DNA from: Onchocerca volvulus
Lineage: Eukaryota > Nematoda > Chromadorea > Rhabditida > Onchocercidae
Assembly: GCA_000499405.2 (NCBI GenBank)
Contig: HG738138.1
Coordinates: 24,563,687-24,627,686 of the forward strand
Direction of reading: 5' to 3'
Length of the DNA stretch: 64,000 nucleotides
The position numbers and the translations under genes are program-made. Below are positions 1,074-54,270 of this stretch, one piece after another; the stretch's first letter is position 1; each line of letters opens with the position of its first letter. The notes under the pieces are model-generated. The model was not told the origin of the DNA. It did no database searches and saw only the letters and a list, made by a program, of their open reading frames with translations.

Positions 1074-1318
1074 AATCACCAAGCAACCAAATGAATAAGC
1101 AAAGATCAACCAAGCAACCAAAAGTTCCACCAAGCAACCAAGAAATCCCACCAAGCAACCAAGAAATTCACCAAGCAACCAAGGAATCAAGTCAGCAAAC
1201 ACCAAGAAAGTAATCAACCAACCAAGCAACCAATCAGCCAGGCAACCAAACAACCAAGAAACGGATTAACCAAGCGACCAAACAACCAAGCAACCAAGCA
1301 ACCAAGCAACCAGGCAAC
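1074..1318. repeat. CCAAGCAA-rich degenerate tandem repeat
   Basis: Repeated CCAAGCAACC blocks with variable AAGAAAT spacers, giving a low-complexity Pro/Ser/Asn/Gln-like or Cys/Leu-like reading depending on frame. The open frame on the minus strand is a by-product of the repeat. No splice sites or conserved domain support a gene. Confidence 0.75.
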
Positions 1319-1478
1319 TATCATACAAAAACTCCAACTTCTCTTTCTATGACAATTTCAATTCAATTCTCTTCCTACTGATGACTCTTTGCACTTTCCT
1401 ATTTTAGTATTATTGTTGCTATGAAATTATTAATCAATTTTGGAATTGAAAAAAAAAAATCCAAAGTAATAATCAATA

Positions 1479-2064
1479 AAACTTATCAACTAATTGATAA
1501 TTCATCCCGTTCTTTTCAGTGTTTTAAGAATTTTTCATTAAATATTACGATTAAATTTCAATAAAGAAAAAAGTTTAAATCAAAGATCAATCATGAAACT
1601 TCTTTTAGAATGTTTACATATGGCTATATATATTTTGTAATCATCGAGACAACAATTCTCGAAAATGCATTCTACTGTATAATGATTACAATGGATTGGA
1701 TGCAAAATTGAAATAGATGGAAAATGCACGAGAAAAAGTTACGCTTGGATACAACGTGAATAGAATGGAAAGCGGNAAACTTATCAACTAATTGATAATT
1801 CATCCCGTTCTTTTCAATGTTTTAAGAATTTTTCATTAAATATTACGATTAAATTTCAATCAAGAAAAAAGTTTAAATCAAAGATCAATCATGAAACTTC
1901 TTTTAGAATGTTTACATATGGCTATATATATTTTGTAATCATCGAGACAACAATTCTCGAAAATGCATTCTACTGTATAATGGTTACAATGGATTGGATG
2001 CAAAATTGAAATAGATGGAAAATGCACGAGAAAAAGTTACGTTTGGATACAACGTGAATAGAAT
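1479..2064. repeat. 297-bp direct tandem duplication joined at an N
   Basis: The block 1479-1775 is repeated almost base for base from 1777, with only a few differences (for example CAGTGT versus CAATGT). A single ambiguous base lies at 1776, exactly at the junction. This may be a genuine recent tandem duplication or an artefact of joining two overlapping contigs. Confidence 0.85.
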
Positions 2065-2740
2065 GGAAAGCGGGAAAGGTTACGCTTGGATACAACGTGA
2101 ATAGAATGGAAAGCGGGAAAGGTTACGCTTGGATACAACGTAAACAGAAGGAAATGCAGGAGAAAAAGTTACGTTTGGATACAACGTGAATAGAATGGAA
2201 AGCGGGAAAGGTTACGTTTGGATACAACGTAAATAGAACGGAAAGCGGGAAAGGTTACGCTTGGATACAACGTGAATAGAATGGAAAGCGGGAAAGGTTA
2301 CGCTTGGATACAACGTGAATAGAATGGAAAACGGGAAAGGCTACGCTTGGATACAACGTGAATAGAATGGAAAACGGGAAAGGCTACGTTTGGATACAAC
2401 GTGAATAGAATGGAAAGCGGGAAAGGTTACGTTTGGATACAACGTGAATGGAATGGAAAGCGGGAAAGGTTACGCTTGGATACAACGTAAGCAGAAGGAA
2501 ATGCAGAAGAAAAAGTCACGTTTGGATAAAACGTGAATAGAATGGAAAGCGGGAAAGGTTATGTTTGGATACAACGTAAATAGAACAGAAAGCGGGAAAG
2601 GTTACGCTTGGATACAACGTGAATAGAATGGAAAGAGGGAAAGCTTACGTTTGGATACAACGTAAATAGAATGGAAAGCGGGAAAGATTACGCTTGGATA
2701 CAACGTAAATAAAATGGAAAGCGTAAAAGGTTACGTTTGA
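2034..2740. repeat. 43-bp minisatellite
   Basis: About sixteen head-to-tail units, most of 43 bp, whose core reads TTACGCTTGGATACAACGTG followed by AATAGAATGGAAAGCGGGAA. Units vary by CGCTT/CGTTT, TGAATAG/TAAATAG, and a variant ending AAATGCAGGAGAAAA. Single units also end the first copy of the upstream 297-bp duplication (about 1735-1775). GC content is higher than the surroundings. Confidence 0.93.
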
Positions 2741-4212
2741 AAATAAATCATTCAACGTTTGAGAATCATGTGTTGAATTTTCGACAGACGAAAAATGACG
2801 AGAGCAACAAGGAATAAATGCGTGCGAAAAATCGATTTTTATAAAATTTCAAGAATTTAATTTGATTGTGGAATATTTTTTTCGTTCTTTTTTTTTTTTC
2901 CGAAATTTTTTTTCATAAGGATCAAATGTAAAAAAAAATGCCGATATAGAAAAAAGGATGAAAAGAATGATGATAGTTGAAATCAACATAATAAGGTCAT
3001 CGAACTTCAAATATTTTCCACACTCTAATGGCCTTTGTTATGGTAATTTTTATCGATTCTTAATGGTTTCACATTAGATGACAACGAAGATGATACGATG
3101 ACGAATGTTAGCGTTAGCGACATTCGTTAGCGACAGCGATCGCTATCATCAAATATGCAAATTTCACGACAATTATTTCGGTAGAGGGGTAAATTTGATG
3201 AAGGGATCCATCCATTTAACAATATATTTAACAGTGGACATATTAATAATGCCCAAAAATTAACTTATTGATTGATTATCAATAAGTAATTCACTTATTA
3301 ATTTGATTTATCAATATTTAAAGTAAGAAATCATGATTAGATTACAGTAGAAATATGTAAATTTCATTAGACTGAAAAAAATTTAATAAAGAAATCTACT
3401 TAATAAGATATTTAATAGTAAAAAGATAAAGAATGCTTAAAAATTAACTTGTTTTCAATTAACAAGTTAATTTTTAAGATAAAGTACGAAATTTTTGTGA
3501 AATTTGAAATGAATTGTTAAAGCAAGTTTTCAGATATCTTAGACTAATTAAAAATATTTATGTGATTAATCTAATCTCCAAGATTTAAATATAAGTTCTA
3601 ATCCCAAATTTCTTCAATTTCTTATTTTATGTATTAAATGTGAAAAGTAGTTGATAATATAACATTTGATTTGTATCGTAATATATTTTTGTGTTAATTT
3701 TCGGTGATAAAAATCAACAACTTAATTCTTTTTATATTAATATTTCTTATTGAATTTAGCATTTTCGATTTATAAATCAGAGATGATGAAAGTAATTAAA
3801 ATTAGAAATAAAAAATTTAATAAAATATTACTCATTATAATCATTAACAGATAAAAATATTAATATACTGGAGTAATAGAATTTTATTTCAATAGCAAGG
3901 AAAGAAAAAAAAAAAAGGTCAAAATGAACGTCTGAGAAAAGTTTGACAAAAATTTAAAATTATTCAATCTTATAAATATGTTCGCCAAAAATCAATAAAT
4001 GTATGTAACAAATGCTATGATTTGAACGATAAGCTGCATTAAATCTATTGGTAAGGTCATAGGTCAAGGTTTTTCTTAAGCTAAGTAAATAACCATTTTG
4101 TAAGACTTATAAATTGGCAATCATTGAAGTAATATTTCTTTTAGAATTTAGCTTTTAGGTTTTGTAAATGGATCATATAAGGTTATCTTAAAATTATCAA
4201 TAATTGACAAAC
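2741..4212. other. No gene seen
   Basis: AT-rich DNA. An imperfect GTTAGCG/GCGACA cluster with local self-complementarity (CGAATGT and ACATTCG) lies at about 3100-3145. Nothing else stands out. Confidence 0.55.
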
Positions 4213-4327: not shown

Positions 4328-7300
4328 CTGGGAGAATTCTCGCAAAAGATTGAATACCGCGAAAGTAATGCAAATGTTGCATAGTAGTAATACCTAAGTT
4401 TCAAATGAATTTTAACAGATAACTTGGCATTCTGTAGTAAGCAAACGAACACAACAGATACTAAAAAAAGGAAAAAAGGAAGAAAAAAACCAATTCGCAA
4501 ACGAAATAATTCAGAGGTGAAAGATGAAAGAACGTAGCGAAAAATTTTTGGAAAAATGGATCGAAGTTTGGTGACATCTATGGAAACTTAATGATTAATA
4601 TAACATGTATAGAAATTAATGATTTAATATGATATACTGGAATGAATTTAATTTCAAATATCTATTTATTGATCAAAATAATTATAATTTATTCAAAATG
4701 TTACTTTTTTTTTTGAACAAAATGGCAATTAAGAATTTCCTGATTAAATTACGAACATTTCAGATATATTAGAATTACAAATGAAAGACCTAATTTTAAT
4801 TTAATGACAAAGAAAAACATTTGCTGATATCTAGAAATCAAATTAACTAATGAAAAGTTAATTAAAAACATTTGTACTTGAAAAAAAAAAGGTCTAAATT
4901 TTCCAAATATTTGTCTTATCCGAAGATTAGAAACAGAAAGCTTTGATAACTATCGTATTGTAGATTTGAAAGTTTGAAAGTACGTATTGTAGATTTGAAA
5001 GTTTCCAAATTTTCAGATAATCATGAAAATTTAAAAATTCCTTGATAAATTTATTCTATAACATCAAAAATTTTTAAAAAGTCAAATAATTTGCCAAGCA
5101 TATTAGTCCCGAAACAGAAAACTAATAAACTAATTCATATTTTTCAAAAACTTTTGGAAAACTGATGTGAATAGGCTCTTGCAAATGAATAATTCATTCG
5201 AGAATATCTGGCCTAGCACTTTGCCCAAAATCGATTTCACATTATGATTGATGTTAAAAATGAGCCTTAAAACAATTTTTTTCTCAAAATTTTAAGGATA
5301 CTAAAATAGATAACAATTGATTAATTAATCAAACTAATTGAAACGACACAAAAATCTTATCCAAAATTTATCTCATTTTATTAGCAATTAAGATTGGTAG
5401 TAAAAATGGACTATTTTTCAATCAATATAAATTGTATTGGAACAAATAACAATTAACTATAAAAATCTAGAAGATATCTAAGATCGGTAATAGATAACTA
5501 TAATACATTAATAATTAATTTTAACTTAATATATGTATTTCTTGTAAATTTATGCATAAATTCGAAGAAATAAAGTAATCGATTTATTGATTAATTTATT
5601 ATTTTTATCTATCTTCGCATAAACATTAATTTAATTTAAAAAAAAAAAAAAAAAAAATGAAGAAAATAATGACATTTTTCCAATCTATAACATCAGTGAT
5701 TGAATAATTGTAAATAAATTAAGTTTTAAAAATTACAAAACAAATTAAATTTTGCTTGAAAACTGATGTAATTGAAAAAAAAAGAAAAAAGAAAAAAAGA
5801 AAAAAAAGAAAATTTTTTCAAAAAAAAAAAGAAAATGGTATTTTTTCAACTTAACTATCAATGCTATTTAAGTTAGATTGAATAAATTGTAAATAAATTG
5901 AACTTTAAAAATCACAAAATTAATTAAATTTTGCTTAAAATAGTTGAAAAAAATTTTAAATTAATTAAATTTTGCTTGAAATAATTGAATAAATTATAAA
6001 ATTTATTTTATTTTAGAAATAAAAAGAAAAAATGAATTCAAAAGATTTCCATCTTCGAAGATTCAAATCGACACCTGCAAACGGAAAAAGCTAAGAATGA
6101 TCGATTGTTGTCACAGCAATGAAATGACCTTTACCAGGTATATTGCTCATCGATCAAGTGTCACATATTAATAATTAACCTCAAACCCCATCATTTATCT
6201 AAACAAGAAATGATGGAAGCAAACAAGCTTTAATCGATTGATATTTCATGTTCAAATATAAAATATATTTGTAATTGAATAATTAAATAATTAAGTATTA
6301 AAAATTTCAAGTTTTTATTTATTCATTGATCAATCATTTACAAAATGTAATAATCATTTCTTTGTTTTAAATTTATAAAAAATTCTGCTACAATCAGAAA
6401 TGAAAATAGAAAATTTAAAACTTTTAAATTTAATTATATATCTAATGATCAAAAATAAACCGAATTTCTAGCTTCGGTCTTACAAATTGTTATAAAAATT
6501 AAATTAATGATTTGATATTATAAATACCTTGCTAAAATAATTATTACGATTTCATTGATCCGATCAGTCATTTGTATTCGTATTAAAAGGTTTTAATTAT
6601 TTCTTGATATTCTTACCAAAAACATACTGAATAGTCCTTTTTTTTTTTTTTAAATTAAAATTAATAACTTTATCAGAATTAAATTTACAAGTTTCATCAG
6701 TTATAAGTCCAAAATTTCTGTGATCATATATCATTCGAACAATTTTTAGTGACACTAATATATTTTCTTCGTAGACAATGTCATTTACCTTCAACAAATA
6801 GTGAAATTCTAAGAAAAATGAAATTTTGTGATAATTCAATAAGATAAAAATATTTTGATAAATAAATAGAATGATCGTAAAATGGTAAGAAAAAAAAAAG
6901 AAAAAAAATGAAGGTAAAATAGTTTTTCTGACTTCAATCAGAATGAAAAAAAAAAAAATTAGGACAAAATGATTTCCAGAATTCTAGCCTGGAAAAAATT
7001 AGACTAGAATGATTTTTGTAATTCTAAACTAAACATTTCAACTTTATTTTAGAATGAAAAAATTTTGACAAATAATAAATGAATTTAAGGGAAGACACAA
7101 ATGTCACATATTAAAAACACAATTTTTGATCAAAGTTGATCAGGTTTTCACACTATTCAAATCAACAATGTTTTTCAGGAGTTAATTATTTGCCATGCCA
7201 AATTTGAGGTTATTTGATGGAAATAATTTGGAACAGAACAATTTGATTACTATGATAAAATACGGGATAAATAAAATTTCGTCTAGAAAAAATTAATTCT

Positions 7301-9467: not shown

Positions 9468-10174
9468 AGCGTAGCCGATCCAGCTAATCCCATGGGTGAC
9501 GGCCCAGCTTCGCGTGTCCGGTTTCAGCTAATCTATATAAAGAAAAACATCAATGTTCGTTTGCTCAACATCTTAAACCTCCGAAAGTTCTTAGACACGC
9601 ACATTATTTATATTTAAAATCTTAGATATCGAAAAGTCTTTAACCTATTGCTTTTAAATTTTGATGCAACGTTGCATTCGAATACGTGCATTTTTTATAT
9701 ACGCGTTGCTGTAGCCCAGTCTGGTTAAGTGGAGAAAAAGAGAAAGCGCATGTTTCTGGTGTTGGAGAAAAAAAAACTGATTCTTTGTAATTTGCTTTGT
9801 AGCTTGGTTGAATTAGAGATTATTAATTATTAATTATTACAATTTACCATTAATCATTATTATTTATTATTATTATTCTTTATTGTTAAATTACTATTAT
9901 TACTATCGAGAAAAAGAAAAAGAGAGGTAGAGACATATGAGACGAAGAGGGAGAGTGAGAAAAAGAAAGGAAGGCGGAGACAATAAACCTCATCCTGCAC
10001 TTATTTTTAGTTGTCACAGACGTGAAACGTGAGGAAAAAGTAAGTATGTCTGTAAAAAAAAGTGATGAAATATTAGAATACAAGAATTTGTGTCAAAATT
10101 TGAAAAAAATCAAAATAGAACTTTCGGAAATCCATTCGGGATAACAGGTGGCATTTACATTTTTATTTCTATAG
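9468..10174 (+). mobile_element. Helentron-type non-autonomous element (HINE), copy 1
   Basis: The element shares its 5' part (CCGATCCAGCTA, then CTATATAAAGAAAAAC, ATGTTCGTTTG and AAACCTCCGAAAGTTCTTA) and its 3' part (GGATAACAG then CATTTACATTTTTATTT ending in CTATAG) with the inverted copy at 51583-52516. The subterminal CTATATAAAGAAAAA and the terminal TTTTTATTTCTATAG are inverted repeats of each other. An ATT microsatellite lies in the centre (about 9817-9905). This order (5' subterminal repeat, core, central microsatellite, 3' subterminal repeat) is that of Helentron-associated elements such as DINE-1. The 5' border is approximate. Confidence 0.8.
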
Positions 10175-10499
10175 ATTTATGTCTAGATTCTAGACTAATT
10201 TGTGACTTATTGATTTATCAATAAGCAACAATTTCAAATATTTAGTTCATCGATGCGATAAGACTAAGCAATGAAGCGAAAAAAAAAGCCAAATATAGCT
10301 AAAATTTAAAATTAATCGACTTGAATTATTCAAATAGACAGGACAGATTTTGAGTTAGTGGCCAAGCACACATCATTACTAACAATCCATAACTTAAATT
10401 GTACAGAAACAGCCAAGATAGTTGCAGGAAAATTGGATTCTTAGCTAAGCAATTATCAATCTCATCGAAGATACAAGTATAAACAATGAAAAACCCAAC

Positions 10500-18123: not shown

Positions 18124-18789
18124 GCATCTCGAGGATATGGTAATCGATTTCGTTAAGGAAAATTCAATATCTCTATATCATCAAACTTGATCATAACTTT
18201 ATCAGCGTTAACAATTGCGTCTTTTTGTTTGCTCTTAATACTATACCAAATCTTATCACTGTGAATTCAAATGTATTTTGAATCCCTCTTATAATTTCTT
18301 TATCTCCTTTTTTTTTTTTTTTTAAAAAAAGCATATAATTCAAATAAATTTGTCTGTGACTACTAAAGTTTGAAAAATTTTGGCTAACTGCTAAGGAAAA
18401 AAATCTGTCTCTCAAATTATGGAGAAACACATATATAGAAACATCAGAAAATCAAAAATAATCGCAAAAGAATAATTTTCAAAAAACTCAAAATTAAATA
18501 GAATGAAATTTTTAAAGATTTGAAGATTTTTAATGAAGAAATTTTCGAAGATTAATTAAGTTTTTCAAAGCTTATCTGAAAGAAGAGTTGCAAATGTGTA
18601 CCGGGAAAATTAAAATAAAGATCGATTTTTCTTTTAAATTCGAAAAGTTTTTGTATAATTGATATTTTAATCCAAATTCTAATATCATTATTGCTTGAAC
18701 CTAAGGATTAAGTGTGGAATAAAACCGACAATCTCTTTGCAACTTCAAGAGAAGAATTGTTGAAATTAAATTAAAGTTTCCCAATATTC

Positions 18790-19912
18790 AAATCACTTAT
18801 AAAAATCAAGATTGGCTGAGTGAACAAACTTTTCTTGTGGCCAAGAACAATGACATCTACGAACCACAATATTATTTAGTCCCAAATTCAAGCAAGGTAG
18901 TGAAATACAAGTCCGTCGATATTATTGTGGAAGCAGATGAAGCGGTTAATTACTCAACAGAATTTTTGAATTCGCTTATCTGCCAGGGATGTCACCGCAT
19001 GTGCTGCAATTGAAAATCGATGTGTCAATTATCAAATTTGCGAATTATCGATCAGCCAAAACTTTGCAGTGACACGCGACTTGCAGTAAAAAAATTAATG
19101 AGCAACTTCGTAGAAGCGGCAATCTTGACAGGACTTTTTTAAGATGAAGACGTCTTCATTCTTCGCATTCCTATGATTCCAACGGATATGCCATTTCAGT
19201 TGAAGAGATTGCATTTCCCAATGCGATTGGAGATGTTTGCATTCACCATCAACAAGCTCAGGGCCATTCTTTAGAATTGTGCTATTTAGATCTCGAACGG
19301 ATTGCTTCTCACATGGACAATTATATGTTGCATGTTCTAGAGTCGGCAAACAGACACTCTCTATCTTTACACGGAATAACAAAAAATTTATATCCCACAA
19401 GTAATATTGAAATAAGTTGTTTGAATGAAACATTTCATCACACTATCATGACCTTAACATTTGTGCTACTCAACTGCGTTGCCCACAAATCAAAAAGTAA
19501 ACGAATTACATCCCTCACAAAACAAAAAACAAACGAAAAATTTAAATTACTCGTTCTATTTATTTAAAAATACGTGCCTATTTGAATGCAACGCTGTATG
19601 GAAATTTCAAATCAATCGATGAAGAACTTGAAACGCTGAAGGAAGCACTGGAATAATGTAGAAAATGGGCGTGGTGAATAATTCTGTCCGCTTGTAAAGG
19701 CGCGGTGCGGGGCGGAGTCAAAAAATTCAGCCCTCTCATTTACTTTTAGTTGTCATTGACGTAACACTTGAAAAAAAAAAAAAAAAAGTATGTCTACATA
19801 AAAATGATGACCTATTCAAATAAAGATTGTGTCAAAATTTGAAAAAATTACTGGAAAACTTGCAAGGTTCCATCAGGGATAACAGAAAGCATTTACATTT
19901 TTATTTGTATAG
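18790..19912 (+). mobile_element. 3' part of a Helentron with a broken Pif1-type helicase
   Basis: Conceptual reading with several stops and frameshifts gives the C-terminal Helitron/Helentron helicase: NQDWLSEQTFLVAKNND, then YKSVDIIVEADEAVNYSTEF, LNSL, QPKLCSDTRLAVKKLMSN, EAAILTG, RIPMIPTDMPFQLKR, the motif corresponding to FAMTINKAQGQSLE (here FAFTINKLRAIL), and LELCYLDLERIASH. About 470 bases after the helicase the sequence ends in GGGATAACAG plus CATTTACATTTTTATTTG and TATAG, the same 3' terminus as the two HINE copies in this window. The helicase-bearing element and the short elements are therefore one family. The Rep part and 5' end are missing. Clearly inactive. Confidence 0.85.
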
Positions 19913-19993
19913 ATAAGGTGGAAAAACGTCTTCATACACAAAAATACATACACATATACACATCCACACATATAAGTTCGCACATTATGGAAA

Positions 19994-21929: not shown

Positions 21930-24150
21930 GTAAAGAATTTTTATTGGTCTCAGCAATGGAAGTTGTGATAAAAGTGATAAATGAGGAAGAAGTTGTAATA
22001 AGGTAAAGTAGTCGTTAACATTAAATTTATTGATCGAAATGATCCAGTATTTATCCCAAATGAATTTACAATATTTTAGGCAGTTACTTGGCAGTTACTT
22101 TACAATGTTACACATAGGTTTGATTATTAGGAAAATAAGAATTAGATAAATCGTAATATTAGTGTCATAATATATATTCTCTCATCCTAAGTGGATAAAT
22201 CATTTGAGAAATATGCTATAATACAAACTATTTGAACATATTTCACTTATAAAAATTACTCGGTTTTTTTCGACAAGCATCAAAATATTCATCAAAGTAG
22301 TCAATCTCAAAAAGTGTTCGGAATTTATGTCGATGATTGAAAAATATTTCTTTTAATTCATTGAAAATAGATTAGAAGACACTATAAAAGCTAAAGTTGA
22401 AAATATGACTTCAGGAATTGTATAACTGAACTTAAGGAATAACTATTACTTCACATCTTAATGTTCCAATTAAGTTTTATATTTCCTAAATGATCTTCGA
22501 CAGTTTTCTACACAATTATCATAAGATTAATTCATAGCAGAGATGATTATTTTAATTTAAAATAAGTTTACAAGTTAATTTTTACTTAAAATAATCAGTT
22601 GAACAACTAAATGCCATCACAAATTGCGCACGGAATATCAAATTTTGAATAATTATGAGATTGAAAAATTGTTAAAATTTTAGGCTTTTCCTTCCTTGAT
22701 CATTCCTAAACAAGTTCGAAACCTTGTTTTGTAAAAAATTCGTGACAAATAATATCAACAATGAGCTTTTTAATTACCAATCTGTACTAAGTTAAAAACG
22801 ACTGATAACCCACCAATAGAAGCAGTAAAATGCAACCAATCTGATAAGTGTAATTCATGATAAAGTGCATATCTTTCAAGCACAATGATTTATTTATCGA
22901 CTTCATTCATTTCATTTTAACTTCCTATCAAATGCAAATTTTTATTATTTTGCATAATTTCTTTCTTACATTTATAGTTTAATAAAGAATATTTGGTTTA
23001 ATGAAGATTACTTTGAAAATAACATATTTAAAGATTTGAATTTTTGTCAATATTCCCACCATACTTTCGCTAGATTGTTTAATTTCTGAATCATTGAAAA
23101 TTACTAAGATTAATGATTAATAAGAAAGCATCAAAGAAGCAAATTATTCATCAAACTATTTGATGAGTAATTACAGAAATTTAGTCATTCTAGTTTGATT
23201 AATTCTGAAATAGAAGGCTTATTAATTAATGCTCTGATCGTGATAAAATCAGTGCATCATTTAATAGACTTGATGTGTTTCTGCAACAATATAATAATAA
23301 AAGTAAAAGTGAAAATTAAAAAAATAATTGCAAGATTTTTTATTACAGATCATAAATGAGCAATTTGGCAACAAATTATAGTATTATTAAAACTGTGAAT
23401 CATTTTAAATGTGATAGATGTCAAATGATGAGACATACTATTATTGAAAAAGCAATTTTTCGTTCCTTTTCAAATCATTTCTTGAAGTTTAGATAGCATA
23501 TTGAGAGACAACTTTTTCTTTTACATTGATTGTAATCAAAAGTATCATGGCAAGTTTCAACAAATAATTGAGTGTACTGAAATTTTCATATTATAATTTT
23601 CATTTTTAAAAAATTTGTATAGAATTGAAATGAAACTGGATAGAAATCAAATGAATTCTGGTATCACATTTAAAGATTGTATATAACAATGTTAACGCTT
23701 TGAAAATTTCACCTTCAAATATTTGTTTTTTTTCATTTCTTATAAAGAATAAGTCGAGAAGAAAGTAACTATTTTTAACTTTTTTTTTCATTTCTTATAA
23801 AGAATAAGTCGAGAAGAAAGTAACTATTTTTAACTTACTGTTATTAATTCTGATTAACACCGATTATTTAAATTGAATTAAAAAAAAAAAAAAAAGCTGC
23901 TTTACATCAATGTTAATTTTCAAGTATCTTTCGGGAATTCGTGTAACATTTTAATCCGGTTGATATCAAATGGCATTAAAATGTGTCATGAGTATTTTTC
24001 AGAAATTTATATCGGATTATATTAAGCCGCTATCATGTCAATAAATATGTCATAAATATCGTTCGAAAATTTATATGCGATTGTATCAATTAAAGATGCG
24101 AAATAATTATATTAAAAATGCATTGAATAACGTAAAATTTTCGATATTTT
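21930..24150. other. No secure gene; upstream of grl copy 1
   Basis: AT-rich duplicated DNA matching 50290-52700 in copy B. It holds the 54-bp direct repeat at 23735-23836 and, at 24046/24047, the empty insertion site of the HINE found in copy B. The grl promoter should lie at its end but no element can be assigned. Confidence 0.5.
23735..23836. repeat. 54-bp direct repeat specific to copy A
   Basis: The unit CATTTCTTATAAAGAATAAG continuing through TCGAGAAGAAAGTAACTATT occurs twice in a row here but once in the paralogous copy at about 51310-51370. It is a tandem duplication younger than the segmental duplication, or a loss in copy B. Confidence 0.85.
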
Positions 24151-36454: not shown

Positions 36455-37300
36455 AATTAAAATGACTTGTATTTTCAATAATTATTTGATGCTCAGCTAG
36501 CAATAAATTTTCAGTTGAAGAAATGTTTGATTAGTTTTTGGTCTTAAATTATTTATGGTTCTTAAATTTTAAACTAAATTATTTTCAGTCAATTTTTGAC
36601 CGAGTTCAATTTTCATTTTCAGTTAACCATTAAATGAATTTAATTAATTAGGAATCTCAGATGGCAAGACATATATTTTGTAATTATGATGAAAGAAAGT
36701 TAGTTAATTGATTAAGTTATTCACAATGAAAATTTGAAGTGAAAAACTAAAGTTTAAAATTAAAAAAAAAAATTCATGTGTTCGTGTAATTTCAGAACGT
36801 CATTAGAAGTGAACAAAACGTCAGTGGAAGCGAAACTGTTGGATTTCATCTTGAAGTATGTTCTAAATGTTTAAACTGTCATCATTTCGCTTTTGGATTG
36901 CATAGCTGAAGTTTAGTTACACTTTCTAAAGTCATAAAATTAACATTATGAAGAAATGACATACTTTATTTAGGGTTTCATAATTGGTCAGTCTTTGTAT
37001 TTCTTCAATTTGAGCGAATTAAAAATGATGGAGAAATCCGTTATAATCTACGAAAAGCCATCATGCAAACCATACGGTGGTTTTCTGAGAAGAATAATCC
37101 GCTCTATAACGATAAGCACTTGTTCGGCGTTTCCTGCATTGCCTGTAAATCATTATAATTAATTTAATTACAGTTGATAATTATTTGAAGCGGTAATTGC
37201 TACATCTTAAAATGTGTAATACGTGATTTTCCTGTTATAGCTAGCCATACAATGGGGATGAAAAGGATAATGGAAAAGCTGCACAATCGGAAAGTACTGA
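36455..37300 (+). pseudogene. BUB-1 5' fragment, left arm of an inverted repeat
   Basis: Homologous to 30430-31490 of the intact gene, intron sequence included. Exon-2 equivalent 36796-36855 (KTSLEVNKTSVEAKLLDFIL) has an extra TSLEVNK-like insertion shared with the minus-strand copy. The exon-3 equivalent from about 37013 has lost 19 bases after MMEK, shifting the frame before WFSEKNNPLYNDKHLFGV, and its 3' splice site is mutated. Intron 3 is largely deleted: the CTAGC at its start runs directly into exon-4 sequence (HTMGMKRIMEKLHNRK). The homology starts in intron 1, so exon 1 is absent. Dead copy. Confidence 0.85.
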
Positions 37301-38039: not shown

Positions 38040-39610
38040 GTATGATTGTATGATTTAATTTATCCTAAAATCAATTTTGCAAAAGACATTTGCAGCAGTT
38101 ATTTCAAAAAAAATTTCAGCAAAAATGAAATCAATTTTAGTAAATTATTGCAAAAATAAGTTAAAATAGATATACTTGATAAAATGATAACAATATAGCA
38201 TTTGAGACATGAGCGAAAATCCTTCCTTTACTTATTTAACACTTAAGTCATTAAACTGCTGATGTCACCTTTTGCAGTGATCTTGTTCTTTAATTGAACA
38301 GTCGTAACAGTATCATTATTCAAAGCTTCAACACCAGGCTAACTATAACAGGAAAATCACTATTATACATTTTAAGATGTAGCAATTACCGCCTCAAATA
38401 ATTATCAGTTGTAATTAAATTAATTATAATTACTTACAGCAATGCAGAAAACGTCGAACAAGCGCTTATCGTTATAGAGCGGATTATTCTTCTCAGAAAA
38501 CCACCGTTTGGTTTGCATGATGGCTTTTCGTAGATTATAACGGATTTCTCCATCATTTTTAATTCGCTCAAATTGAAGAAATACAAAGACTGACCAATTA
38601 TGAAACCCTAAATAAAGTATGTCATTTCTTCATAATGTTAATTTTATGACTTTAGAAAGTGTAACTAAACTTCAGCTATGCAATCCAAAAGCGAAATGAT
38701 GACAGTTTAAACATTTATAACATACTTCAAAATGTAATCCATCAGTTTCGCTTCAACCGGCGTTTTGTTCACATCTAAAGACGTTCTGAAATTACGCTAA
38801 CACATGATTTTTTCCTAATTTTAAACTTTAGTTTTTCACTTCAAATTTTCAGTATGAATAACTTCATCAATTAGCTATTAAATAGCTTCTTTCATTATAA
38901 TCACAAAATTTATGTCTTGCCATCTGAGATTCCTAATTAATTTAATTCATTTATTGGTTAATTAAAAATGAAAATTGAACTCGCTCAAAAATTGACTGAG
39001 AATAATTTGGTCTGAAATTTAAAAATTATAAAATATTTAAAATGAAAAACTGATCAAGCATATTTTAATCGAAAATTTAATGCTAACTGATTGTTAAATA
39101 ATTTTTGAAAATACAAGCGATATTTGTGAAAAAAAGAATGTAAAAGAAGCAAATATATAGGAATAACTTACGGGACGAATAATGGTAGTGAATCGGGCAA
39201 TTCCATAATCGTCTATTTTGATTTATTCTCAAAATTTTCAGCAAAGATCGGTTGAATAATAGAACAGTGTACTGCCTCTTATCAACTGCAATAAATCAAA
39301 TTAAACAAACATCTAAAGAGAAATGATGGCGTAAATTTCAAAAAATTCGCTCGTGATCTTAATGGACCGATATGCACGATTAAGGATGCAATTCGAGGAT
39401 AGTAAATGAATATCAAACATTAAACGTGAATATCAAATGAAACTATTAAAACGAGAAAACACTCGAGATTATCAAATGAATATCGGGTATCAAATAAGCT
39501 TGAACTGATCGAAATGCAAGCTAACTATTTTATAAAGTACTAAAACTGGGAAAAGATAAAACTGGAAGCTGGTAAATTTCAGAGATTTTGCACGAGGAGA
39601 AATATGTCGA
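38040..39610 (-). pseudogene. BUB-1 5' fragment, right arm of an inverted repeat
   Basis: Reverse-complement match to about 29990-31470 of the plus-strand gene, covering upstream DNA, exon 1 (39172-39206, MELPDSLPLFV), exon 2 (38726-38785, ending VEAKLMDYIL), exon 3 (about 38448-38570, ending WFSEKNNPLYNDKRLFDVF) and intron 3, stopping at the first bases of exon 4. Exons 1 and 2 join in phase, but exon 3 has the same 19-base deletion as the left arm and a TTTGAG acceptor. It shares the exon-2 insertion with the left arm, so the two arms are each other's closest relatives. Homology to the upstream region of the intact gene continues to about 40260, interrupted by the purL fragment. Confidence 0.85.
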
Positions 39611-46204: not shown

Positions 46205-46285
46205 TGAAAATAATGCATTAAAAAAATATTACCTTCGTGAAATAACGCGCTGTTAGAATCAAAAATGATAGCAAATAAATTATGA

Positions 46286-47530
46286 CATCTACGAACCACA
46301 ATATTATTTAGTCCCAAATTCAAGCAAGGTAGTGAAATACAAGTCCGTCGATATTATTGTGGAAGCAGATGAAGCGGTTAATTACTCAACAGAATTTTTG
46401 AATTCGCTTATCTGCCAGGGATGTCACCGCATGTGCTGCAATTGAAAATCGATGTGTCAATTATCAAATTTGCGAATTATCGATCAGCCAAAACTTTGCA
46501 GTGGCACGCGACTTGCAGTAAAAAAATTAATGAGCAACTTCGTAGAAGCGGCAATCTTGACAGGACTTTTTTAAGATGAAGATGTCTTCATTCTTCGCAT
46601 TCCTATGATTCCAACGGATATGCCATTTCAGTTGAAGAGATTGCATTTCCCAATGCGATTGGAGATGTTTGCATTCACCATCAACAAGCTCAGGGCCATT
46701 CTTTAGTTGTTGCATGTTCTAGAGTCGGCAAACAGACACTCTCTATCTTTACACGGAATAACAAAAAATTTATATCCCACAAGTAATATTGAAATAAGTT
46801 GTTTGACTGAAATCAAGATCATTGTTTTATTCAAGGCAAACAGATTATCGATAGGCTTTTATTGGGCAAGCCAGAAACAAGATCTAAAAATGGGCTATCA
46901 GCATCTCGAGGATGTGGTAATCGATTCCCGTGAAGGAAATTAAATATTTCTACATTATCAGCGTATCATCATGATGAAACTTGATCAGTAATTTTATCAG
47001 TACATCAACAATTGCGTATTTTTGTTTTTACTATCAATAACGTGTCTTGCCCAATAAAACATAATAACGTGTCAAATTTTATCATTGTGAATTCATCTAA
47101 ATGTGTTTTGACTTCCTCATAACTCCTTTTTTTTTTTTTTTTTTAAATAGAGAAGAAGAAATATAACTAAACTTCGATTTGCTGAGCTGAATTTGCGATG
47201 TTTGGTTATAAAATTGTTAAAACCTTCAAAGTTCTAACTTAATTTGTTTATAGTTATTAAAGTTTGAAATATATTGGCTAAATACTGCATGGAAAAGCTC
47301 TCTCTCTCAGATTATGGATTAATACATAGATAGAAGCATCAGAAAGTTGAAAATAATTAATTGAAAAGAATTATTTTCGAAGAATTCAAAATTAAATGGA
47401 AGAAATGAAATTTTTAAAGTTTATTTAAGCTTTTTAAAGCTTAACTGGAAAAAGGGTTGTCAATGTGAACCGGAAAAAATGAAATAAAAATTGATTTTTC
47501 TTTTTAATTTGAAAAGAAAAGTAATTCTTG
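46286..47530 (+). repeat. Rearranged copy: Helentron helicase joined to UGM last exon
   Basis: 46286-46808 matches 18852-19430 (helicase fragment) nearly base for base, with a 41-base deletion after CATTCTTTAG. At 46809, without spacer, it jumps to sequence matching 18033 onward: the UGM last exon ([10 protein letters not shown] in the shifted frame; the UGM frame carries the IDRLLLG segment) and its 3' flank, continuing with decreasing similarity to about 47530. The order is helicase then UGM, the reverse of the 18-19 kb locus. Shared stops show both helicase copies descend from an already dead element. Confidence 0.9.
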
Positions 47531-51000: not shown

Positions 51001-51582
51001 TTGTTGAAAAAGCAATTTTTCGTTCCTTTTCAAATCATTTATTAAAGTTTAAAAAGCATATTGAAGGGCAAATTTTTCTTTTACACTGATTGTAATCAAA
51101 AGTATCATGGCAAGTTACAGCAAATAATTGAGTGTACTGAAATTTTCATTTTTCAACTTATAACTTTTTCTAATGATGGGTCTTGAAATTTTTTCCAAAA
51201 ATTTCTATAGAATTGAAATGAAATTGAATAGAAATTAAATAAATTTTGGTATTACATATAAAGATTGTATATAATAATATTAACGCTTTGAAAATTTCAC
51301 CTTCCAATATTTTAGTTTTTTCATTTCTTATAAAGAATAAGTCGAGAAAAAAGTAACTATTTTTAACTTACTGTGATTAATTCTGATTAACACCAATAAC
51401 TCAAATTTAATTTAAAAAAAGAAAAAAAGGACGATTTTATGCTATTGTATAATTTTCAAATATCTTTCATGAATTTGTATAGCATTTGTCCAATTGACAT
51501 CAAATAGCATTAAAATATGTCATAAGTATTTTTCAGAAATTTACATCGGATTATTTTAAGCCGACATCAGATATCAATAAAT

Positions 51583-52516
51583 CTTTATAAATAAAAATGT
51601 AAATGCTACCTGTTACTTCTCAATGATTTCCGCAAGTTCTCCACCGATTCTTTTCAAATTTTGACACAGTCTTGTATCTCAATAGAGCATCATTTTTATA
51701 TAGACTTACTTATTTTTTTTACGTTCCACGTGCGTGAAAACTAAAATAGGTGAGCAGGCGGAGTTTACCTTCGTCTTCCTTTTTTTCTCTCATTCTCCTT
51801 CTTCCTCTCATTTCTCTAATAATAATTAATAATTAAAAAATAATAAATGATAATAAATAGTGATGAATAACAATAAATAATGGGTAAACAGTAGTAAATA
51901 ATAACAAACAACAATAATATTTTCACGTATAAGTAATAATAAATAATAGTCTTTCCACGTTTAAGTAATAATAAATAATAATAATGAACAATAAACAATA
52001 ATAAATCGTGAATAATAGTAAATAATGATAAATAAAAATAAATACTAATAAATAATGATAAATAATGATAAATAATAATAAGCAATAATAAATTATAATA
52101 AATAATAATTAATAATAATAATAAATAATAATGAATGATGATAAACGATAATAAATAACAATAAATAATAATGAATAATAAATAATAAATAATACTGAAT
52201 GATAATAAATCATGATAGTAATAATAACTGACAAATAATGATGAAAAATAACAAATAGTAATAAATCATGATAAATATTTAAAAACATTTGCTTATTCGA
52301 TTGCAACGTTTTAAAGTTAAGGACTTTCCGATACCTAAGATTTTGAATTAATATAGACAAGACGCATGTTTAAGAACTTTCGGAGGTTTAAGATTTTGAA
52401 CAAACGAACATTGACATTTTTGTTTATATAGACTATCTGGAGCCGGACAAATGAATCGCGGCCGGCCCTCACAGACTAGCTGGATCGGTCATGCGGAGAG
52501 TGCCGGGTCCAGCTAG
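51583..52516 (-). mobile_element. Helentron-type non-autonomous element (HINE), copy 2
   Basis: In minus orientation it begins CTAGCTGGACCCGGCACTCT, contains CTATATAAACAAAAATGTC, an ATT/ATA microsatellite core (about 51820-52270), and ends CATTTTTATTTATAAAG. Its boundaries are exact because copy A of the segmental duplication keeps the empty site: AATAAAT|ATGTCAT at 24046/24047 against AATAAAT-element-TATGTCAT here, with one extra T. The GC-rich 5' end (CCGGC, GGGCCGGCCGCG) contrasts with the AT-rich flanks. No coding capacity; the open frames in the microsatellite are artefacts. Confidence 0.9.
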
Positions 52517-52721: not shown

Positions 52722-54270
52722 ATGGAACTATTTGCTCTTCAAATTGTTTTCTTCGTGCTGATGAAGCAAATAACAGCCTGGGGTACATCCTGGATGGAAG
52801 CCTGGAGCAGCCCATTTTGTCAATTTTGTGATTGTCCTCAACGAGAAACGGTCTGTCCTCCACCTCCACCAGTTGTGTGTCCACGTGTAGTCTGTCCTCA
52901 ATTTTCGTCACAAATGTGTCCGCCAGTATTCTGTCCTCCACGTGAGATATGTCCGCCTCCAGTTTGTCCTATGCAGCAAATTTGTCATTCTCAAGTCTGT
53001 CCGCCATGTGGAGCACATACTTCGCCCTTTGTATGCAATTTATTTTTTGAAATTTTGATTTTGATCAAATTGTTTACTTTTTTTTTTGCAAACGAGATTA
53101 CATAAATTTTGAAAATTTGCACAATTTCTGATGATTTTTGACGACTAAGCTATTAACTTCTATATCATATTACTTTACTAAAATCTTGCAGCATGGACAA
53201 TTAAAAGTTTATAAATGAGGATAAGATGTCGGTAAGTTAAAAAATATTAAATGCGTAACTTATGACATAATACAATAATGCATTCAAATAGAGACTTCCA
53301 TAGGACAAAGTTCATTTGAAATTTAAAAGATTAAATTGGTTTATTCATCGAAATTCATTTAAAAGTTTAAATTGGGTAGGTTATTTTCTGCAAATGATAA
53401 ATTCTTTAAATATTACCAGAAATTCCTTTCCGGAAACAAATCTCATAGCTTTATTAGCTAAATTTTATTTTGATTTTTTAGCTCATAGCTATTTCTGGAA
53501 TTGCAATTCTAGTATGAAATTGATTTTAACTATTGTTGTCCATGACGATCGAAGTGCATTCTAACCTTTCTTAAAAGATTTTCTCATTATATTTTCAAAA
53601 AAAAAAAAAACCATTGAAGATCGAGAATTGAAGATATTCTACCATTTGCTTTTTAGAACGGAATACTTAATAACTTGAAGAGGTAGGATACTTAAGTACA
53701 AATTTCCATGAAATTTTCTGTGAAAATAGAACAATCTGTTCTAATTTTTCATACCATTCAAATTTCAGCCTCCTGTTAAGTGCTGTAAGGGATGCAAATG
53801 TTCCACGCGATTTAAACGAGATTCTTCAAGCGCTAATGATTTAATGCAAGAAATCAATCCAGTCTGCAATAATGATCAATTAATGACAATTATGGAAAAG
53901 GTGACATTTTCTTGAATATTCTAATTTTTCAATGCACTATTTCTGTTTCTCCATAATATGGGCATGAATTCTGCCTGTGTATGCACTTGAATTACTTACG
54001 CTTTGATACTCGCAACATACGTAATTTATTGTTCGTTTCGTCAATTTTTTTCTGTGCAAAATGCATTGCTTATCTTATCAATTAATTTTACAGAAGATTG
54101 GAACGAATGCGACAGAAGCAGCGTTTGCCATAAAAAAAGAAGCGGATTCTAAGTTGAAAGCACAATTTAGTGTATTCTGTGCAATGAACGATTTGATATA
54201 TGTGGCACATGCGGGAAATTTTTGTCAGTATAAAAAAGGCGATATTATCTGTTTCGCCTATAAATTTTAA
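52722..54270 (+). CDS. Secreted ground-like (GRL) domain protein, copy 2
   Basis: Exons 52722-53030, 53769-53900 and 54094-54270, all phase 0, about 205 residues. Signal peptide MELFALQIVFFVLMKQITA; then a longer linker than copy 1 (TSWMEAWSSPFC), the CPPPP/VVCPRVVCP repeats, and the ground-like domain starting KCCKGCKCSTRFKR and ending YVAHAGNFCQYKKGD, CFAYKF. The Cys pattern is fully conserved with copy 1, while the repeat region and some linkers differ, so the pair has been under selection or has diverged only recently. Role as for copy 1 (apical matrix, inferred from the family). The gene sits in copy B of the segmental duplication just downstream of a HINE insertion, which may separate it from upstream control sequence. 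Confidence 0.9.
53192..53231 (+). other. 40-nt cassette-like exon with stops, grl copy 2 intron 1
   Basis: Identical to 24682-24721 including both splice signals and at least 130 bp on each side. Inclusion after exon 1 would give HGQLKVYK-stop. Confidence 0.5.

Follow-up and report, generated by a model that had tools for sequence, protein, structure and literature searches.

The window analysed here is a stretch of 64,000 bp of the Onchocerca volvulus genome (C3:24563687-24627686), located on a contig of 25,485,961 bases; the genome searched comprises 94.7 Mb in 115 contigs. A mobile element of 935 bp is found on its forward strand at positions 51582-52516, together with two related pieces elsewhere in the window. 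The features are as follows, in positions of the window.

51582-52516, + strand: complete non-autonomous Helitron copy, 935 bp, flanked by A51581 and T52517; placed by homologous ends genome-wide and the empty site in duplication copy A
51582-51605, + strand: 5' terminus TCTTTATAAATAAAAATGTAAATG (family consensus TCTATATAAATAAAAATGTAAATG)
51606-51816, + strand: remainder of the conserved 5' region
51817-52277, + strand: degenerate TAATAATAAA/AAT microsatellite
52278-52516, + strand: conserved 3' region
52409-52432, - strand: the 5' terminus repeated internally in inverted orientation (asymmetric or subterminal inverted repeat), 84 nt from the 3' end
52433-52475, + strand: inner of the hairpin units in the 3' tail, degenerate
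52476-52516, + strand: terminal palindromic hairpin unit, with CTAG at 52513-52516
24045-24046, no strand: unoccupied target A^T (the pre-insertion site), kept by duplication copy A, from comparison of the duplicated segments
9470-10175, - strand: second short copy, cut short on its 3' side within the last hairpin (approximate lower bound), with TC at 10175-10174 and an A flank
18741-19403, + strand: degraded Pif1-type helicase piece, antisense to the Helitron ends
19710-19913, - strand: 5' end with TC at 19913-19912, adjoining the antisense helicase; other side truncated

Borders of the element and the empty site

The element belongs to a segmental duplication with segments A (~18.0-28.7 kb) and B (~46.3-56.7 kb), the pieces of which are mostly 78-91% identical. 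The insertion distinguishes the two segments, being present in B and absent from A. Copy A reads AATAAA/TATGTC, and in copy B the same bases stand on either side of the insertion (AATAAA, then TC...CTAG, then TATGTC), with zero bases duplicated or lost. The borders are exact because the empty site shows no gained or lost base. At the 5' border the TC occupies 51582-51583; the junction T is ambiguous, so that this border is exact to one base. The original prediction of a complete mobile element with exact borders at 51583-52516 and an unoccupied site at 24046/24047 is confirmed after a shift of one base in each case.

On the forward strand the ends of the element are A/TC...CTAG/T, and a palindrome precedes the 3' end by about 12 nt. 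The minus-strand orientation proposed originally read the element backwards. The extreme ends are not inverted repeats of each other, and the inverted copy of the 5' end sits subterminally. The terminal hairpin of this copy carries one deletion and three changes. When folded as DNA, its 3' tail gives a value of -18.1 kcal/mol (z -2.4), which is equalled by 4 of 200 shuffles.

The Helitron end at 52516 is located about 205 bp upstream of a Met at 52722, a possible start of a predicted short Cys/Pro-rich product. The matching frame in copy A (Met at ~24233) stands without the insertion. A promoter change by the insertion upstream of this frame is possible. A protein search gave no candidate homologue of the predicted product.

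Other copies and repeats in the window

The three copies in the window, at 51582, 10175 and 19913, have one terminus in common. A shared terminus had been predicted and is indeed present, but it is the 5' TC end and not the 3' end. The second copy, proposed as a short element at 9468-10174, keeps a regular TC end; on the other side the homology breaks off within the last hairpin and CTAG is absent. It contains an AT-rich, AAT-type microsatellite at 9819-9906. The predicted microsatellite is present in this copy and, at 51817-52277, in the complete element; no match to it was found in the piece at 18790-19912. In the third copy, at 18741-19913, a degraded helicase on the plus strand runs into a minus-strand TC end.

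Some repeats of the window lie outside these copies. The helicase pieces at 46282-46812 (segment B) and 18850-19430 (segment A) are 99.5% identical over 425 bp, while the remainder of the duplication is ~78-91% identical. The piece in segment B is at a non-matching position and has no Helitron end. This near-identity could reflect a recent local copy, conversion or an assembly effect. A tandem array at 1479-2739 has a period of ~43 bp and a longer internal repeat. Inverted repeat arms of ~780 bp, 90.6% identical, are located at 36466-37246 and 38337-39117, with related pieces at 30.0-31.5 kb.

Ends, target and abundance of the family

Flanked loci were gathered by searching the genome with both end regions of the element. 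The matches in L001-L068 and the window that reached within 12 bases of the query end gave 44 5' ends and 30 3' ends, of which three and one, respectively, come from the window itself. These ends were gathered by similarity to those of 51582-52516 and are no random sample; nor are they fully independent, L032 and L033 having one flank in common. The 5' ends start with TC in 40 of 44 cases and are preceded by A in 38. The 3' ends are CTAG in 21 of 30 cases, CTAA in two and other sequences in seven, and T follows in 29. Compared with base composition, the flank bias has p values of 1.2e-12 for A and 6.5e-13 for T, on the assumption of independent ends. The six 5' ends without a preceding A and the seven 3' ends that are neither CTAG nor CTAA are counted against the canonical reading given below. 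The 3' consensus closes with a 19-nt palindrome, GGCCACGCGGAGCGTGGCC, and a further 12 nt ending in CTAG; the palindrome is degenerate in the 51582-52516 copy.

The family is abundant, as a genome search for the shared ends, suggested with the original prediction, demonstrates. The 26-nt 5' end with up to 3 mismatches has 1,287 sites, some of them internal inverted copies, compared with 1 site for the reversed-pattern control. The 13-nt 3' end with up to 1 mismatch has 406 sites, some representing the other arm of the palindrome, compared with 9 in the reversed-pattern control. The Helitron family in Onchocerca is large and old.

Several individual loci are of interest. At L041 (C3:19308547) and L044, head-to-tail CTAG/TC junctions are found with zero host bases between. 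These two of the 30 3' ends are directly joined to a TC-type 5' end, as expected of tandem or circle-derived products. L015 and L065 represent a second 5'-end subfamily, in which GTAAATC(G/A)TT.CTGTG replaces GTAAATGCTACCTG after the common TCTAT(A/T)TAAA start. The loci L032 (C3:12686227) and L033 (C3:12528619) have an identical 5' flank on opposite strands ~158 kb apart, which is either a segmental duplication in inverted orientation or an effect of the assembly. The 5' flanks of L021, L028 and L015 are AAT-rich as well. Together with the nested copy L078 described below, these flanks suggest that the family may insert into its own microsatellites.

The inverted copy of the 5' end and the 3' tail

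The inverted copy of the first 24 nt was found in all 30 aligned 3' ends, the query for which spans it. It is located 82-85 nt from the 3' end in 29 of them and 42 nt in the remaining one, and 15-23 of its 24 positions match, compared with a shuffle mean of 13.6. Genome-wide, a 44-nt pattern representing this feature gave 275 matches, compared with 0 in the control. The inverted copy might be thought to serve as a second start of transposition. The idea gained no support, since none of 30 inspected sites looks like an insertion begun there. The 30 sites were drawn from 100 listed among the 275 (20 with 0-1 mismatch and 10 keeping GTAAATG), and their flanks were judged by eye. In 27 of them the inverted copy adjoins a 3' tail, either entire or in part (clearly the latter in L090, L098, L103 and L104); in the other three (L083, L084 and L105), G or T, never A, precedes the TC.

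The 3' tail consists of one or two palindromic units of ~42 nt each. Covariation was tested on 29 of the 30 3' ends, the second match of L061 being dropped. In the inner stem 191 of 224 cells are paired, a value reached by 39 of 500 shuffles. Covariation in this stem is weak: seven compensatory cells were counted where shuffles average 3.0, and 6 of 500 shuffles reach this number. The outer stem of the terminal palindrome gave no covariation signal in the 29 ends. Downstream of the 5' region, the 51582-52516 element, the short copy at 9470-10175 and the coding copy L069 all have a microsatellite of AAT type.

Coding relatives

The arrangement of a coding relative, L069 (contig C38), is as follows, all on one strand.

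1167: TC end
3071-4063: Rep ORF
5222-6482: helicase ORFs
6800: CTAG end

The order between the ends is thus TC, Rep, Hel, hairpin and CTAG, in the sense direction. These ORFs match Pfam families PF14214, PF05970 and PF21530, and genome-wide both PF14214 and PF21530 have at least 150 matches. No endonuclease is found among the Pfam matches on 7 ORFs. The distance from the helicase stop to the 3' end of L069, the one copy measured, is ~315 nt, which is too short for an endonuclease of the Helentron type. No complete uninterrupted Rep-Hel frame is present among the copies examined.

The Rep ORF of L070, 519 amino acid residues long, matches Helraiser (7lcc) with an E value of 2.3e-103, and this is the sole solved relative found. 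The alignment of the two contains a GLPHAHIL stretch and the paired tyrosines of KYICKY. The Rep (HUH, two Tyr) and the Pif1 helicase are found between the ends in L069, the nature of the Rep being supported by the match of L070 to Helraiser. The comparison set for Rep and helicase is without a named Helentron or Helitron2 reference protein.

Classification of the family

The marks of canonical Helitrons are TC/CTRR-type ends, a palindrome near the 3' end and an A^T target (PMC4067079, PMC5148889, PMC4778049). The element at 51582-52516 is very probably a non-autonomous copy from a canonical (Helitron1-type) family of rolling-circle transposons, because of its A/TC...CTAG/T ends, the consensus hairpin, the empty site without duplication, the many copies and the sense Rep-Hel of L069. 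Insertion occurred between A and T without target duplication at the one empty site; it was found neither at T^T, as in Helentrons, nor between TTTT and T or C, as in Helitron2. The prediction of a rolling-circle element of the Helitron superfamily with a helicase-bearing relative in a filarial-type genome is supported.

It is important to compare this family with known systems. Helraiser/Helibat1 from bat has the same TC/CTAG ends, a 19-nt palindrome ~11-12 nt from the 3' end, the A^T target and a Rep-Pif1 protein (PMC4778049). The Helibat ends are described as being without inverted repeats, whereas the Onchocerca family has the inverted copy of its 5' end; it also adds one or two tail hairpins and the microsatellite. 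Hel-2, BmHel-2 and OnMITE01 of Lepidoptera also have TC/CTAG ends, A/T flanks and a 3' hairpin; their inverted repeats are subterminal, and a microsatellite lies downstream of the repeat on the 5' side (PMC4344730). They differ in having a (CTGT)n microsatellite and a consensus of ~250-340 bp. Since Hel-2 has the same set of traits with another microsatellite, the combination has a precedent.

The inverted copy of the 5' end in the 3' region is a trait described for Helitron2 and Helentrons, and is therefore counted against the canonical reading, as are the weak covariation of the terminal palindrome, the altered terminal hairpin of the 51582-52516 copy and the interrupted Rep-Hel frames of the copies examined. 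It raises the alternative that the family is of Helitron2 type, or intermediate between Helitron1 and Helitron2, with a functional and family-defining inverted repeat. Its presence in every aligned 3' end and the 275 genomic sites favour such a reading, and Helitron2 elements, including FoHeli of Fusarium, have an asymmetric inverted repeat and a transposase gene that may point either way (PMC5148889). Helitron2 differs in termini and target, however, and those found here are of the Helitron1 kind. The copies L071 and L072, with a reversed gene, lack the 24-nt repeat, and lepidopteran Hel-2 combines canonical ends with subterminal inverted repeats (PMC4344730). We therefore regard this alternative as improbable.

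The original assignment to a Helentron or DINE-1-type element on the minus strand is ruled out by the ends, the target and the direction of the genes, and we consider it highly improbable. The likeness that prompted it is real: Helentrons and DINE-1/HINE elements likewise combine 3' palindromes and a microsatellite with an inverted repeat that lies subterminally at one end (PMC4067079), and the subterminal repeat itself is confirmed in the present family, but it occurs with canonical ends in Hel-2 as well. Helentrons have a T^T target and an endonuclease-bearing partner, while the Onchocerca family has the A^T target, TC/CTRR ends and no room for an endonuclease in L069. The helicase in sense copies points toward the hairpin/CTAG end, and the L070 Rep matches Helraiser. 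An inverted repeat is also what a TIR DNA transposon or MITE would have, but the extreme ends are not such repeats, a Rep/helicase lies between the same kind of ends, and no target site duplication, the opposing outcome named with the original prediction, is seen at the empty site, so that the chance of this identity is negligible.

By analogy with the Helraiser experiments (PMC4778049), the Rep-helicase of this canonical Helitron family would nick next to TC, unwind one strand as far as the 3' hairpin/CTAG, where it would stop, and the unwound strand would be joined into the A^T target. The short copies, which retain only the ends and a microsatellite, would be mobilised in trans. The rearranged relatives include a subfamily with its transposase gene flipped relative to intact ends.

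Copies with a reversed transposase gene

The direction of the helicase was surveyed in all 150 listed Pif1_2B matches, using family ends within 4.5 kb; the counts are minimum values from a biased sample. The 98 5' ends used comprise 42 of the 46 rows of the 5'-region search (four short fragments were dropped), exact 26-nt matches and 7 picked places, namely five one-mismatch 26-nt sites chosen for nearness to helicase matches and two others. The 109 3' ends comprise 39 of the 41 rows of the 3'-region search (the own copy and one fragment were dropped) and further exact 13-nt matches. Among the matches listed, at least 17 have a 5' end within this distance, 10 in sense and 7 in antisense, and at least 22 have a 3' end, 13 in sense and 9 in antisense.

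Six of the seven antisense cases on the 5' side, L071, L072, L073, L076, L079 and L080, have a common inverted arrangement (for L076 the reading covers the 5' side alone). The block inverted in L072 occupies ~1122-3588, between direct 5' and 3' regions. From end to end, over 3.8 kb, L071 and L072 share 90.5% identity; the host DNA that adjoins their A/TC and CTAG/T junctions is different in the two. The near-identity of the two at different sites implies that the flipped form moved as a unit. We read these copies as a subfamily with the transposase gene flipped between intact ends, with six copies besides the window piece. The helicase piece of the window looks like an old, truncated member of it.

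The seventh case, L078 (C2:27574700-27580500), carries a helicase and has an open frame of 612 aa; it reads as nested in the microsatellite of another copy. It illustrates an alternative in which the antisense helicases are mere nested insertions of sense elements and a flipped-gene subfamily does not exist. As an explanation of all antisense helicases this was rejected, since it fits L078 only, one of seven. The six others have the inverted arrangement of L072 in common, and when they were searched for the consensus of the ends, neither TC nor CTAG of an inner element was found (for L076, on the 5' side only); taken with the L071/L072 pair, this makes nested insertion an improbable account of the group.

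Relationships of the Rep and helicase proteins

The Rep search returned 2,919 proteins, of which the best 120 were considered, and the tree contains 68 of those and two worm copies. The worm copies group with the partial lungfish protein P0098 and with P0045; further proteins adjoin, and the hookworm Ancylostoma is far away. A careful tree of 31 rows retains the same four-row set with support of 98/94. The quick tree draws the lungfish protein inside the worm clade. This placement was not accepted, as an AU test of the two worm rows as one clade gives p 0.29 and so keeps that clade allowed. In its longest matches the partial lungfish Rep reaches 81% identity with L070 and 84% with L077, the value for Ancylostoma being 58%, and the two Onchocerca Rep copies are 80% identical to each other. 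The comparison thus suggests this much: the lungfish Rep is as close to the two worm copies as those are to each other.

For the helicase, the 7,980 candidates sharing most words were scored, the best 120 were considered, and the tree contains 48 of them and two worm rows. Here the worm copies are found in a set of 15 rows with Nylanderia, Cryptotermes, Nilaparvata, Trichonephila, Sparganum and further proteins, and Ancylostoma is again far away. The simplest reading of the two trees is that this Helitron lineage probably reached Onchocerca by horizontal transfer.

The discordance of the trees could also be explained by ancient paralogous Helitron lineages that were lost patchily, with no horizontal transfer. 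Nematode sampling is thin, Ancylostoma being the sole nematode named, and many close proteins are without an organism name, which leaves room for such a history. The identity of 81-84% between lungfish and worm, similar to that between the worm copies and well above the 58% of Ancylostoma, speaks against it. So does the AU test, which rejects a clade of worm and Ancylostoma proteins with p 5e-6, this group having been chosen after the first tree. Paralogy therefore appears rather unlikely to us, and horizontal transfer is the preferred reading.

A broader statement can be made by joining these results: a canonical Helitron lineage would have crossed phyla (spider, termite, ant, planthopper, tapeworm, lungfish and filarial nematode), so recently that the lungfish Rep still matches two Onchocerca copies as well as they match each other, would have grown to hundreds of copies in the worm and would have produced a mobile subfamily with reversed transposase between intact canonical ends, combining Helitron1 termini with Helitron2-style features. 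As a whole, this statement seems to us evenly balanced between right and wrong.

Significance for Onchocerca and for Helitrons

Among openly licensed PMC papers, searched by title and start of abstract, no earlier description of this Onchocerca Helitron family was found. The main text of the O. volvulus genome paper (PMC5310847) contains no words beginning with helitron, transposon or transposable. According to a 2025 paper, helitron density in Onchocerca is associated with inserts derived from Wolbachia (PMC12693587).

The Onchocerca family is a known kind of element, a canonical Helitron, and it is real and abundant, with some unusual derivatives. The present analysis corrects its misfiling as a Helentron and establishes, to the base, the ends of an abundant Onchocerca volvulus family, which allows proper annotation of the copies. 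The inverted copy of the 5' end by the terminator and the subfamily with the flipped gene are natural tests of the parts that Helitron mobility needs. Finally, the protein trees add a likely case of horizontal transfer involving parasites.
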